Positions 26,492 through 30,831 of a DNA stretch of 64,000 bases are shown one piece after another; within the stretch, counting starts at the first letter, position 1, and each line of letters opens with the position of its first letter. The stretch is from Acidobacteriota bacterium (lineage in GTDB: Bacteria; Acidobacteriota; Vicinamibacteria; Vicinamibacterales; Fen-181), in contig JADGOB010000001.1 in assembly GCA_017883185.1 (NCBI GenBank), positions 37,797-101,796 on the forward strand. The letters run 5' to 3'. The notes beneath the pieces were generated by a model. It was not told the DNA's origin and ran no database searches. It saw only the letters and a program-made list of their open reading frames with translations. A program made the position numbers and the translations under genes.

Positions 26492-26682
26492 GCGTTCGCC
26501 ATCCGCACCCGGCTCCCGACGAGGAATCAAGGGGGCCGGGTCCATTCTGCTTCTGCCTTTTCCATTCCCGCCCGTTCGGCGGCGGTGGCGTCGTTCTCTC
26601 GCATTCCATATTCGTGGACGTGCGGCTCGCCATCCAAGGCGGAGGTGCGCGGCACACGCTCGTCCGGTGATAAGATCGCTCC

Positions 26683-26778
26683 GGAAGCGAACGGGGCCCG
26701 GTGGCCCTCCCGGTCTTCAAAATCGGTCGCTCCCCGCTTTGCGGGGGGGCTGGGTTCGACTCCCAGGCGCTTCCGCCA
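26683..26778 (+). tRNA. selC: tRNA-Sec (selenocysteine, anticodon TCA)
   Basis: A 96-nt tRNA with CCA encoded. The acceptor stem is GGAAGCG/CGCTTCC with an A-G apposition at pair 8. The D arm has a 6-bp stem and 4-nt loop (GGGGCC-CGGT-GGCCCT), a hallmark of tRNA-Sec. The anticodon arm CCGGT-CTTCAAA-ATCGG puts TCA at 26717-26719. A long variable arm (CTCCCCGC-TTT-GCGGGG) and the T arm CTGGG-TTCGACT-CCCAG follow. It reads UGA as selenocysteine with SelA, SelB and SelD, none of which is in the window. A TAAGAT box at 26671-26676 is a possible -10. Confidence 0.93.
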
Positions 26779-26779
26779 A
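26755..26779 (+). other. Putative attachment-site core in the tRNA-Sec 3' end
   Basis: The 25 nt from the T-loop TTCGA to just past CCA are repeated exactly, in inverted orientation, at 28914-28938. tRNA 3' ends starting at TTCGA are standard targets of tyrosine-recombinase integrases, and selC is a classic island site. No integrase gene is in the segment. Confidence 0.6.
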
Positions 26780-27219
26780 TTTCCAAGTATTTTCGCCGCA
26801 AATACTTAGCTTCACCCACCCGCCTCCGCAACCCCTTGTGGCGTTCCAGTTTTGTTCCAGGTGCTGTTGTAGAGAGGCGGAGTGGAATCCCAGCCATCTC
26901 TACAGGTGCAGCGCGAAGTCGTAGGTGTGTTCGAGCTCGCGCATCCTGGCGCGAATCAGTTGGATTCCCGCAGAGACTTCTGCAGCGCCTCGACCACTGC
27001 CTGTCGTCCACTCCTCACCCGTGGCATGCACTGTAGCATCGCGGTACTTGGACCACAGTTCTTGGGAGTCCTTCAACATCGCCTGACGCTTTCGGTCGCC
27101 GCTCGCCAGAGTGGGCTCGAGGCACAGCGTCAGGGTCTGGTAGTAGTCGTCGAAGTGACGCCGCGTTGCGTTCTGCACATCCATCCGGCAGGAGTTGATG
27201 TCAGCCTGGGTCTGGGCGC

Positions 27220-28353
27220 TAGTGCTTAATTGCATAAGTTGACGATTGTGTTTCTCAACTGCGATCCCTTGACCTCTCGTTTGCGCCAGATGAATGGTTT
27301 CGCCCTTGGGCCGTATGCCGCGACGAAGGCCTCAATGGCGAGCCGCACGTCGTTCACACTGCGGAAGCTGGCCCCACGCAGGGCTTTGCGCGACAGGATG
27401 CCAAACCAGATCTCCACCTGGTTCAACCAACTGGCGGAGGTCGGGGTGAAATGGAAGCGGACGGTCGGGTGCGCGGCCAACCACGCGTCGTTCTTCTTAT
27501 GGATGCAGTAGTTGTCCAGAATCACGTGGATCTCATGGTCGTCACCAACATCGGCCAGGACCTCATCCATGAACGCGAGGAACTCGATCCGCCGCTTCTT
27601 CTCGGTGGTGGCGGTGTGAATGGCGCCGGTCGCCACGTCCAGGGCGGCGAAGAGGTTCAAGGTGCCGTGTCGCTTGTAGGTACTCTTGAAGCCTCGGACG
27701 ATCGTGCCGTTGTCGGTCATGACGTAGCCGGTGAGGCGCTCCAGAGCCTGAATGCTGGGTTTCTCGTCCACAGAAATCACCAGCGCGGCTTGGGGCGGAT
27801 TCAGGTACAGCCCGATGATGTCAGCCGCCTTCGCGGCGAATTCGGGATCCGTGCTCACACACCAGCTACGGTGCCGACTCAGACAAATGCCTTCTTTGCG
27901 TAGGACGCGCCAGACGGCATGCACGGACGTCTGGAGATGCTCGGCGACACCCGGACCATCCCACTGGGCCTGCCCCGCCGGGGGCACCTGTTCAAGCACG
28001 TCGAGCACGCGCTGGCGAAAGGCCGGGCCATACTGCACGGGCTTCCCCGGGCGGGCCCGATCGACCAGGCCTGCCAGCCCTTCAGACGCAAAGCGATTCC
28101 GCCACTCCATGACGGTATTGGGGCGAACCCGCAGACGGTGGGCAATCTGCGTGACCGGTTCGCCCTCAAGGCACGCGAGAACGATCCGGGCGCGTTCGAC
28201 CAAGCGCGCCTCCGTCGTCTTGCTGCGGCTCCACTCGTGCAAGGTCTCTCGATCCGCGGTCGCACACGGCGGAACACTCGCCTTCCTGGGCATAGGCACC
28301 TCCCTTGCCCAGGAATTTACATCATATCAGTTACTAACGCAAGTAATCACTAG
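27220..28353 (-). mobile_element. IS630-family insertion sequence with TA target duplication
   Basis: The element spans 27222-28351 (about 1130 bp) between TA dinucleotides at 27220-27221 and 28352-28353. Its ends are inverted repeats: GTGCTTAATTGCATAAGT at the left and, on the other strand, GTGATTACTTGCGTTAGT at the right, with a few mismatches. TA duplication is the hallmark of the IS630/Tc1 group. The disrupted host gene is restored in frame by exact excision, so the insertion looks recent. Confidence 0.92.
27226..28299 (-). CDS. IS630-family transposase
   Basis: A 357-residue intact DDE transposase. N-terminal helix-turn-helix domains (EPVTQIAHRLRVRPNTVMEWRNRF; VAEHLQTSVHAVWRVL) precede a catalytic RNase H-like domain with VISVDEKPSIQAL (first Asp), IHVILDNYCIHK (second Asp) and SWLNQVEIWFGILSRK (Glu). 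This is the usual IS630 length (about 340-370) and no frameshift is seen, so the element may still be active. The TAA stop lies inside the left terminal repeat. Confidence 0.95.
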   Translation of the reverse strand: MPMPRKASVPPCATADRETLHEWSRSKTTEARLVERARIVLACLEGEPVTQIAHRLRVRPNTVMEWRNRFASEGLAGLVDRARPGKPVQYGPAFRQRVLDVLEQVPPAGQAQWDGPGVAEHLQTSVHAVWRVLRKEGICLSRHRSWCVSTDPEFAAKAADIIGLYLNPPQAALVISVDEKPSIQALERLTGYVMTDNGTIVRGFKSTYKRHGTLNLFAALDVATGAIHTATTEKKRRIEFLAFMDEVLADVGDDHEIHVILDNYCIHKKNDAWLAAHPTVRFHFTPTSASWLNQVEIWFGILSRKALRGASFRSVNDVRLAIEAFVAAYGPRAKPFIWRKREVKGSQLRNTIVNLCN

Positions 28354-28786
28354 CACACTCTTTGCCTTCGTTGAGCATCGTGACATTGAAGGCCGCCTTC
28401 GCAGCCTCTTGGTGTTTCTGGTGCTTCTTGAACCACTCCCGCCTTGCGATGCCGTTCTCAGCTTGGCCTCGCGTGACGCCAAGGACGACGCGTGTTGCGA
28501 CGGCCTCCTCACCAACCTGGTTGTATGCCAATAGCGCATCCTGTCCTACGCTCGACTGCGACAAGTTCTTCGCGGCTTCGGAGGAAAGTGCGAACTTCAG
28601 CTGCCCCAGGTCGGTCTTCAACGTTATCTTCGAACCGTCAAGTCCAGTCACCCGACCCCAGTCGTAAAGGAGGTCAGGAACTTGATTGGACTGTCTTGAT
28701 ATTGCCGCTGCTAGACCATCGATTGAAACACTGCTCCCGATGAACGTAGAGACCGCAATCAATGTCGCAGCAACGATGGTCTTCAT

Positions 28787-29178
28787 GCGGCGGATTCTAC
28801 ATCAGCTCTCAAGGTCGCCGATGGAGGCGGGTGGAACTGGAACAGCAGGAATAGCCGTGTTCCTGTCTTGTTCCTCTCCCCAGGCTTTTGTGCGGTGTCA
28901 TCTCAAGGATCTGTTGGCGGAAGCGCCTGGGAGTCGAAGCCGCTCCGCAGTTCGTGTAACTCATTTAAGTATAAGCATTTAAACGAGTTAGCCTGCTTCC
29001 GCTAGAACCGCCACAACCCCAAGACTTATCGCCAGATCTTCCTCGGTGATTTCACGATGTCACTTCGCCAGATTACGCCACAATCCGTGAGGTAACAGGC
29101 CTTCCCGTGGCACTCTCGCGTGGCACCACACGCTCTCTCTGACCTCTGCCGCGCGGCACCCCTGTCATCTTCCGAACC
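28787..29178. other. Gene-free stretch with inverted selC fragment and AT-rich palindrome
   Basis: No credible gene. 28914-28938 is the exact inverted copy of the tRNA-Sec 3' end. Next to it (about 28957-28991) is an AT-rich palindrome, TAACTCATTTAA/TTAAACGAGTTA, 12-bp arms with one mismatch. This pairing of a tRNA fragment and a palindrome resembles the edge of a decayed integrated element. Confidence 0.6.
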
Positions 29179-29271
29179 TCAGTGAGCGCGGTCAGGTTGA
29201 TCGGCTGACTCATCGGCCAGGAGCTGGAAGTTGAGCGACTCGGTGGTGCCTTCCGGGATGTTGAATGTCAT
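29179..29271 (-). pseudogene. Frameshifted phage-like protein remnant
   Basis: From ATG 29271, with GAGAGG upstream, the 30-codon ORF starts MTFNIPEGTTESLNFQLLAD, which resembles the beginning of phage structural proteins with a DGxPINLTG strand. It then ends prematurely. In the +1 frame from 29204 the sequence continues PINLTALTEV, the expected next strand, so a frameshift near 29205 is likely. I recognise the pattern only by analogy. It supports a decayed prophage next to selC. Confidence 0.45.
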
Positions 29272-29724
29272 CGGACCCTCTCTGTCGTTCGGACGGGCAG
29301 TGGGCTGCGCGAAGCCCATGCCGGTATGAGGTAGGCGACCGCCGCCAGATCTTCGAGGCTCACGTCCATGCGTCGCGGTGTCAGCAGCTCGAGCACTCGG
29401 CCGGTCGACAAGCCACGCTCCGTGCGGCGGGGAGCCGCGCCAGGGTCCTCCGCCCGGCGACCAGTGCCCGATCACGTCGGATCGGCGTCACCACCCGGAC
29501 CTCTGACGCCCAAGGCATCGCTTGGGCGGCCGCCAGCTCGAGCCCGCTGAGTCCCGATCGTAGACCGCCAGATCCGAGAGCGGACCCGGCAGGTACGCGC
29601 ACCAGGTGCTCGCCTGGCTCTCCTGATCCACTGGCTCGGCACGCAGATCGAAGTCGAGCGCGCGGTGTCACCTCGCGGACCGGGATTTCAATGAGACTGG
29701 AGAATAGCCGTCGCGAGGGAGGGA
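29272..29724. other. Degenerate stretch without an intact gene
   Basis: Several short overlapping ORFs occur in different frames on the minus strand, for example a fragment reading LEDLAAVAYLIPAWASRSP. None has a consistent start, ribosome site or recognisable domain. I take this to be decayed accessory DNA, consistent with the adjacent phage-like remnant and toxin-antitoxin pair. Confidence 0.45.
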
Positions 29725-29991
29725 CTACTTGATCACCTTCAGTCGACGAAGGTCATCTTCAGACCACCCGATGTCCTTGAGCAACGCGCCGAGCAGCGAC
29801 TTATTACCGTAGGACTTCTTGGCGCGACGGTGAATCGAAACGCGGCGCCGCTTCTCGCCATCGCCCTTGGTGTAAATGACGATCGAACCGGTCTTGCAGT
29901 CGGGTGCCCATCCGTCCCGCTGAAGGGCGCTGCACAGCTCTTCTGTGGTGATGTTCCTTATCTGGTCCCAGACAGCTGTGGCGAAGGCCAT
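29725..29991 (-). CDS. hicA: HicA-family toxin-like protein
   Basis: An 88-residue YcfA/HicA-type double-stranded-RNA-binding fold: ITTEELCSALQRDGWAPDCKTGSIVIYTKGDG, RRVSIHRRAKKSYGNKSLLGALLKDIGWSEDDLRRLKVIK. HicA toxins cleave mRNA. The usual catalytic His after Gly-Ser (GSHxxF) is Ile here (GSIVIY), but His in VSIHRR and the DIGWxxxDLRRLK tail match a recognised longer HicA variant. I chose ATG 29991 over the track's 30192. It overlaps hicB by 34 nt, with the antitoxin gene first. Confidence 0.75.
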   Translation of the reverse strand: MAFATAVWDQIRNITTEELCSALQRDGWAPDCKTGSIVIYTKGDGEKRRRVSIHRRAKKSYGNKSLLGALLKDIGWSEDDLRRLKVIK

Positions 29992-30296
29992 CGGAACTGG
30001 ACCCGTCGAATCGCTGTCGGTGGAACGAGCGGGCGATCGTCTGCCTGCGCGACTTCGAGGCTGGCCCCGATGGGAATCGGGTCGCCGTGCCGAATGTAGG
30101 ACTCCAAGTAACAGTTGACCGCCTGCATCGCGGCATTCACGGCTTCGTCTTCGGTCTCCCCGCCGACGTGCAGGCCCTCCAAGCCGGGGCAATACGCGTG
30201 GTATTCGCCTTCGTCGCGTTCAACGGCAATCACCACCTTGAAGGTGATCGGCGTCGGCTTTGGGCGGATCCAGTCGATGAATGCTTTCGGGAACAT
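29958..30296 (-). CDS. hicB: HicB-family antitoxin-like protein
   Basis: A 112-residue protein with the partially degenerate RNase H-like fold of HicB: FKVVIAVERDEGEYHAYCPGLEGLHVGGETEDEAVNAAMQAVNCYLESYIRHGDPIP. It should bind and neutralise the toxin encoded immediately downstream. The tail (VPPTAIRRVQFRWP) shows no obvious ribbon-helix-helix. ATG 30296 replaces the track's 30395 because the family begins near ITFKVVIA. Stand-alone pairs like this are common in mobile or accessory regions. Confidence 0.8.
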   Translation of the reverse strand: MFPKAFIDWIRPKPTPITFKVVIAVERDEGEYHAYCPGLEGLHVGGETEDEAVNAAMQAVNCYLESYIRHGDPIPIGASLEVAQADDRPLVPPTAIRRVQFRWPSPQLSGTR

Positions 30297-30627
30297 AAGG
30301 AGTGGCCTCAACCAAGCGGGGGACGTGTTGAGGGTGAGAATGTTACACCATCTTGGACGCCCCAGGGACGGCGAAAGTTCCCGGCCAGAAGCCACCCTTC
30401 TCTTCCAGTTATCGGCAGGTTCACCACCGAGTGTATGCCCTTCGCCTGCGGCTGTCCACGTCCACTGCGGCGACTTCTACCGTAGCGAAAGACCCCGCAT
30501 GGCATCCCTTGGCATCCTCGGCGAGGCAATGGTAGTACGTCGTGCGGAAACTCCCCAGGATGGCTACCCCGCCATCGAGCCGACACCTGGCCAGCGCGTC
30601 GGCGAGGGTCCTCGCGTCGGGGCGGAG
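30297..30627. other. Intergenic region between hicB and the second cold-shock gene
   Basis: 331 nt without a credible gene. It contains the presumed hicBA promoter: minus-strand TGTAACATT near 30337-30345 could be an extended -10, with no convincing -35. It also contains the downstream end of the cold-shock transcription unit. ORFs in this area are shadows. Confidence 0.4.
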
Positions 30628-30831
30628 CTACAACTCGATGCGGATGTTGTTGGCTCGCGGCCCCTTGTTCGACGGTTCCTCGTCGAAATTCACCCGCTGC
30701 CCTTCGTTCAGCTGATCGAACACGCCCTGGGCCACGGCGCTCCGGTGGAAGAACCACTCCTGGCCAGCGTCGTCGCGAATGAATCCAAAACCACGGTCAC
30801 GCACGAGTCGCTTGATCGTTCCGTTCGGCAT
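30628..30831 (-). CDS. Cold-shock domain protein (CspA family)
   Basis: A 67-residue cold-shock domain: MPNGTIKRLVRDRGFGFIRDDAG (RNP1 RGFGFI), EWFFHRSAV (RNP2) and LNEGQRVNFDEEPSNKGPRANNIRIEL. An AAGGAG ribosome site lies 8 nt before the ATG. It binds single-stranded nucleic acid, probably as an RNA chaperone. It differs from the 26285 gene in about half its residues, so it is an old paralogue rather than a recent copy. Confidence 0.93.
   Translation of the reverse strand: MPNGTIKRLVRDRGFGFIRDDAGQEWFFHRSAVAQGVFDQLNEGQRVNFDEEPSNKGPRANNIRIEL

Follow-up and report, generated by a model that had tools for sequence, protein, structure and literature searches.

Genomic islands and prophages that occupy the 3' ends of tRNA genes, such as the selC islands of E. 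coli, share a core that runs from the T-loop to CCA, an intact tRNA, and low-GC foreign DNA downstream. The same features are seen beside tRNA-Sec in the window, the whole stretch of 64,000 nucleotides of acidobacterial DNA analyzed here. Compared with selC-type islands, however, the window element has an inverted second core, carries no integrase, measures only ~2.2 kb, and belongs to another bacterial phylum. It resembles decayed elements of the CIME type in retaining recognizable attL and attR cores at its two ends while recombination genes are absent, but its cores are not direct repeats, so that ordinary excision would not be open to it. A related partner element in tandem, as in CIME accretion, was not seen.

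The integrase Int-pTN3 of Thermococcus inverts DNA between inverted tRNA-Leu att sites (PMC5495485), and the window likewise contains two inverted att sites of tRNA origin, between which an integrase could act in the same manner. The Int-pTN3 sites are separate tRNA genes between which inversion has been demonstrated, whereas in the window one of the two is an attR core and inversion would be hypothetical. Also comparable are the tRNA-Sec phages of IMG/VR (L110, L112-L121, and L129), which share one tyrosine integrase family, have an identical 24-mer core and, in most cases, paired arm repeats to the left and right of it. Unlike the window element, they possess an integrase and phage genes. 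Their arms have other sequences than the arms in the window, although L117 and L129 show a GGAAC/GTTCC likeness.

Inverted att copies at a tRNA gene are easily misread as two elements or as an error, and our analysis points to a third route, a micro-inversion inside a single attR. In the reading that we favor, with a probability of roughly 0.7, the segment 26755-28938, continuing to ~29.02 kb, would be a decayed phage-like remnant at the tRNA-Sec T-loop whose attR was micro-inverted after integration. A micro-inverted attR is expected to lock a mobile element into its chromosomal site, or to make an inversion system of its excision system. The work also reveals a coherent family of phage integrases that target tRNA-Sec.

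The tRNA-Sec 3' end, its inverted copy, and the intervening segment

As originally noted, the 3' end of tRNA-Sec recurs exactly and in inverted orientation. The 25-mer TTCGACTCCCAGGCGCTTCCGCCAA at 26755-26779 on the plus strand is identical at 25 of 25 positions to 28914-28938 on the minus strand, and these inverted sites bound the following segment:

26683-26778 (+): tRNA-Sec (selC), intact, the integration target (ARAGORN)
26755-26779 (+): attL core, from the tRNA-Sec T-loop to CCA plus one A
26785-26807: palindrome AAGTATTT-N7-AAATACTT, adjoining the attL core
26843-26858 (+): left arm doublet GTTCCAGTTTTGTTCC, candidate arm-type sites for an integrase
26900-27235 (-): 3' piece of an LprI-family gene, C-terminal, with the LprI domain (Pfam PF07007, E=1.6e-9)
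27222-28350 (-): IS630-type insertion sequence, with its DDE transposase at 27226-28299
28334-28786 (-): 5' piece of the LprI-family gene, without Pfam or PHROG match
28914-28938 (-): attR core, opposite in direction to tRNA-Sec

The full matched block at the two core sites spans 28 nt with one mismatch. No third copy of the 25-mer was found within the window at up to 3 mismatches, and the number expected there by chance is 0 (100 shuffles). A search of the 395 contigs of the genome with the first 23 bases, again at up to 3 mismatches, matched only the two known sites. A 24-mer within the attL core is identical to the attP core of IMG/VR phage contigs, and the core as a whole is identical to the 3' end of a tRNA gene that remains intact. 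We regard the inverted copy as a genuine attachment core. The lower GC content noted earlier for the segment was also confirmed, at 0.54-0.62 over most of 26.75-29.25 kb compared with ~0.65-0.70 in the flanks.

The gene that had been described as interrupted by an IS proved to be an LprI-family gene split by the IS630-type element, which is bordered by a TA duplication (27220-27221 and 28351-28352) and is present as a single copy in the genome. A 17-nt inverted repeat linking 26617-26633 with 27335-27351, the latter inside the IS, was set aside as a chance match; its upstream copy is native and is also found in the sister species.

No integrase gene lies beside the att site. All 11 matches to the Phage_integrase family in this genome are on other contigs, in keeping with the earlier statement that the segment and its vicinity lack one, and none was seen by eye in a six-frame reading of 26780-27260 and 28939-30660. 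Of the tRNA-Sec phage integrase family, only an eroded fragment was detected in the genome, and an intact integrase matching this element was not found there. The fragment lies at 12354-12548 of contig C36 and contains a stop.

The right end and its counterpart in the sister species

The segment ends on the right in a cluster of short motifs:

28833-28843 (+): GGAACTGGAAC doublet of the right end
28859-28874 (+): right arm doublet GTTCCTGTCTTGTTCC, oriented as in the sister species (L032 7173) and as the left arm
28882-29024 (-): putative micro-inverted stretch of the right end (at least 28913-29024)
28888-28896 (+): TTGTGCGGT, near the left inversion breakpoint
28958-28989: palindrome AACTCATTTAA-N10-TTAAACGAGTT, adjoining the attR core
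29007-29016: ACCGCCACAA, imperfect inverted partner of TTGTGCGGT

The left and right arm doublets match at 14 of 16 positions and have like orientation, so that putative arm-type repeats (26843 and 28859) are present on both core sides.

The most informative comparison is with a sister species (G001; JANYLG010000139.1, MAG GL140_5_metabinner_95), whose locus is referred to as L032 and whose chromosomal flanks are ~96.7% identical to the window. Here, a second core copy lies 947 bp downstream of the first and is direct to tRNA-Sec, the two cores thus forming the direct repeats that the window lacks. The arms, palindrome, and core at this right end all point in one direction, and the core abuts the remnant of a native HAD gene, which is absent from the window. 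From this arrangement, the second copy in the sister species can be recognized as the end of an element with its attR core.

In the window, the same right end appears in two orientations. The arm block (28822-28884) matches the right end of the sister species on the plus strand (E=4e-8), whereas 28913-29024 matches L032 7322-7211 on the minus strand with 78% identity (E=2e-18). The arm block and the palindrome-core block adjoin each other in both the window and the sister species, and neither is duplicated. Flipping 28882-29024 by script raised the global alignment score against the sister species from 75 to 176 and gave one continuous alignment. Because the arms keep the orientation of the sister species and only the palindrome and core are flipped, this pattern points to a micro-inversion inside one right end. 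The economical reading is that a stretch of ~112-143 bp, and at least 112 bp, was flipped within the right end of one integrase-less element.

The right ends are only 78% identical while the chromosomes are ~96.7% identical, and the two elements therefore probably represent separate acquisitions. The comparison rests on a single related element, and the window and the sister species probably do not represent the before and after of one locus. The same 2.1 kb was not carried by any of the relatives. In the sister species, the DNA between the tRNA and the right end, with REP repeats and a GIY-YIG-like gene, resembles that of another relative (G004), which has neither a second core nor a right end. 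The GIY-YIG-like genes, judged as such by sequence and surrounded by REP-like repeats, lie directly after tRNA-Sec at L032 6603-6875 in G001 and at L035 10009-10278 in G004, and are 74% identical to each other.

The palindrome at 28958-28989 is shared, among 60 relatives, with the sister species only. As a general hallmark of such ends it was rejected, since beyond these two genomes its sole occurrences were in AT-rich viral contigs, outside any att or tRNA context. An integron attC reading, prompted by the TAAC...GTTA pattern, was likewise discarded; the palindrome is much shorter than such a site would require, and the core is tRNA sequence.

A probable history of the element begins with a tRNA-Sec-specific tyrosine integrase that would have inserted a phage-like element into the tRNA-Sec T-loop. 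The integrase would later have been lost, and the LprI-family cargo gene broken by IS630. After integration, the core-proximal ~112-143 bp of the right end would have inverted, so that the attR core came to face the attL core. This flip probably took place at the short imperfect inverted repeats TTGTGCGGT and ACCGCCACAA, which are found just inside both breakpoints; the pair suggests an event of the hairpin or template-switch type. We rejected recombination between the two tRNA cores as the cause of the flip, as the breakpoints sit between the arm block and the palindrome. With the attR core turned to face the attL core, ordinary excision between the cores would be lost, and an integrase supplied in trans would be expected to flip the intervening 2.1 kb without damage to the tRNA. 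The original prediction of a tRNA-Sec integration locus whose inverted copy calls for a later rearrangement is thereby supported.

Foreign DNA to the right and alternative explanations

Beyond the right end, the sequence continues as degenerate DNA before a HicBA-like pair, whose scores are close to the family cut-offs, and the return to chromosomal sequence:

29728-29991 (-): HicA-like toxin-antitoxin gene (PF07927, 26.5 bits, just below the cut-off of 27)
29961-30299 (-): HicB-like antitoxin gene (PF15919, 27.3 bits)
30510-30607 (+): homology to the sister species resumes, marking the right limit of foreign DNA (92.9% to L032 7423-7520)

The expected accessory DNA past the segment is thus present in the form of the HicBA-like pair; its limit is not at ~30.8 kb but at ~30.51 kb, and the cold-shock gene at 30631-30831 is native. 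A short reading frame without Pfam match (29182-29475, minus strand) is also found in the degenerate DNA, and a likeness to phage baseplate proteins is tentatively suspected for it.

This foreign DNA bears on the explanation that two opposed elements are present, a right-truncated one at the tRNA and an inverted one running from 28938 rightward through HicBA. That the DNA right of the core is also foreign up to 30.5 kb, with the HicBA pair, fits such an arrangement. Site-specific insertion at one target yields direct copies, however, and no second inverted core lies to the right. Moreover, judged by the sister species, the arm block left of the core and the palindrome right of it together make up a single right end, neither being duplicated, and we consider two opposed elements unlikely. 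Of the two origins first offered for the inverted copy, the evidence therefore favors a later rearrangement, on the much smaller scale of the core-proximal ~112-143 bp, over two elements of opposite orientation.

An artefact in this metagenome-assembled genome would be easier to entertain for a draft of 395 contigs such as this one, but a 25-bp repeat is far below the final k-mers generally used in assembly, and the breakpoints fall in unique sequence, where repeats of a length that could cause misassembly are absent. We judge an artefact to be very unlikely.

Still more improbable is an actively invertible 2.1 kb segment, flipped between its inverted cores by an integrase in trans and thereby switching the orientation of its cargo. 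The cores are inverted and identical at 25/25 positions, tyrosine integrases can invert DNA between inverted tRNA att sites (PMC5495485), and phages with a matching core exist; against this, the genome has no intact matching integrase, the cargo gene is broken, and the breakpoints of the inversion that created the pair lie between arms and palindrome instead of at the cores.

tRNA-Sec as a target in phages and in related genomes

Twelve IMG/VR contigs contain the exact 24-mer without a tRNA-Sec gene in the sequence examined, as expected of attP sites. Eleven of these encode one tyrosine integrase family (Pfam PF00589, PHROG integrase), with the 3' end of the integrase gene 40-185 bp from the core. 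The integrases were found by tblastn after a strict motif search had missed them. A further search with the integrase family added L129 as a 13th IMG/VR contig with a tRNA-Sec attP core. In most of the phage attPs, the core has paired repeats to its left and right that point the same way, which is also the layout that we propose for the window. Matches to this family in an isolate-based phage collection were weak and partial. On the evidence of these contigs, phages do use tRNA-Sec as a target in this order, and we infer that the hosts of the phage family belong to this acidobacterial order.

The core has the same direction as the integrase gene in 10 contigs, or in 9 when the near-identical pair L120 and L121 is taken as a single case, while in L113 and L114 (2/12 contigs) the attP core is opposite to it. 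L113 (IMGVR_UViG_3300044759_000067) and L119 (IMGVR_UViG_3300046736_000071) are sisters with 100/100 support. They share 82.5% identity in the integrase gene and 76% in the 230-bp attP module, yet the module has opposite orientations in the two when the integrase is taken as reference, with one breakpoint a few bases from the end of integrase homology. In this phage group, the attachment region has therefore flipped with respect to its neighbors, on at least one occasion and probably on two. The literature searched, which covers the field in part, did not yield a description of comparable attP flips.

The phage flips are not the same event as that in the window, because a flip before integration would leave direct cores. 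For this reason, a rearrangement of the attachment region in the circular element, as in L113 and L114, followed by an unusual integration, is the least probable of the alternatives; attP flips relative to the integrase do occur in the family, but even a wholly flipped attP gives direct cores after integration, and an intact tRNA with an inverted core cannot arise by simple integration. A broader idea, which we put forward tentatively and regard as rather doubtful, is that inversion of the attachment region recurs among the tRNA-Sec phages and islands of this order, where it might determine which end of the element carries the integrase, the one next to the tRNA or the distal one, and where a flip after integration, as in the window, might lock the element in.

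One copy of the tRNA-Sec 3' end is the rule in the 60 relatives. Extra copies, or copies without a tRNA body, were found in G001, G008, G019, G050, and G044, and in a wider search also in G148. Class-wide, 101 of 193 genomes gave matches, and only the genome of the window has two copies in opposite orientation on one contig. In G148, the gene for a 370-aa tyrosine integrase ends ~30 bp from the tRNA-Sec 3' end, and in G008 a full-length relative of the phage integrases is encoded on the same contig as the second core.

Other arrangements at tRNA-Sec were also observed. In the three-contig genome G044 (C1:212972-213345; L041 7973-8347), the 3' end of tRNA-Sec occurs four times in direct tandem just after tRNA-Sec, at spacings of 128, 126, and 97 bp, the final copy retaining the least tRNA body. 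REP-like repeats (TTCGACTCG...GCTCATGGC) start within one or two bases of the tRNA CCA in G001, G002, G003, G004, G010, and G029, and likewise follow the core copy in G050, so that they are seen in several families of the order overall.
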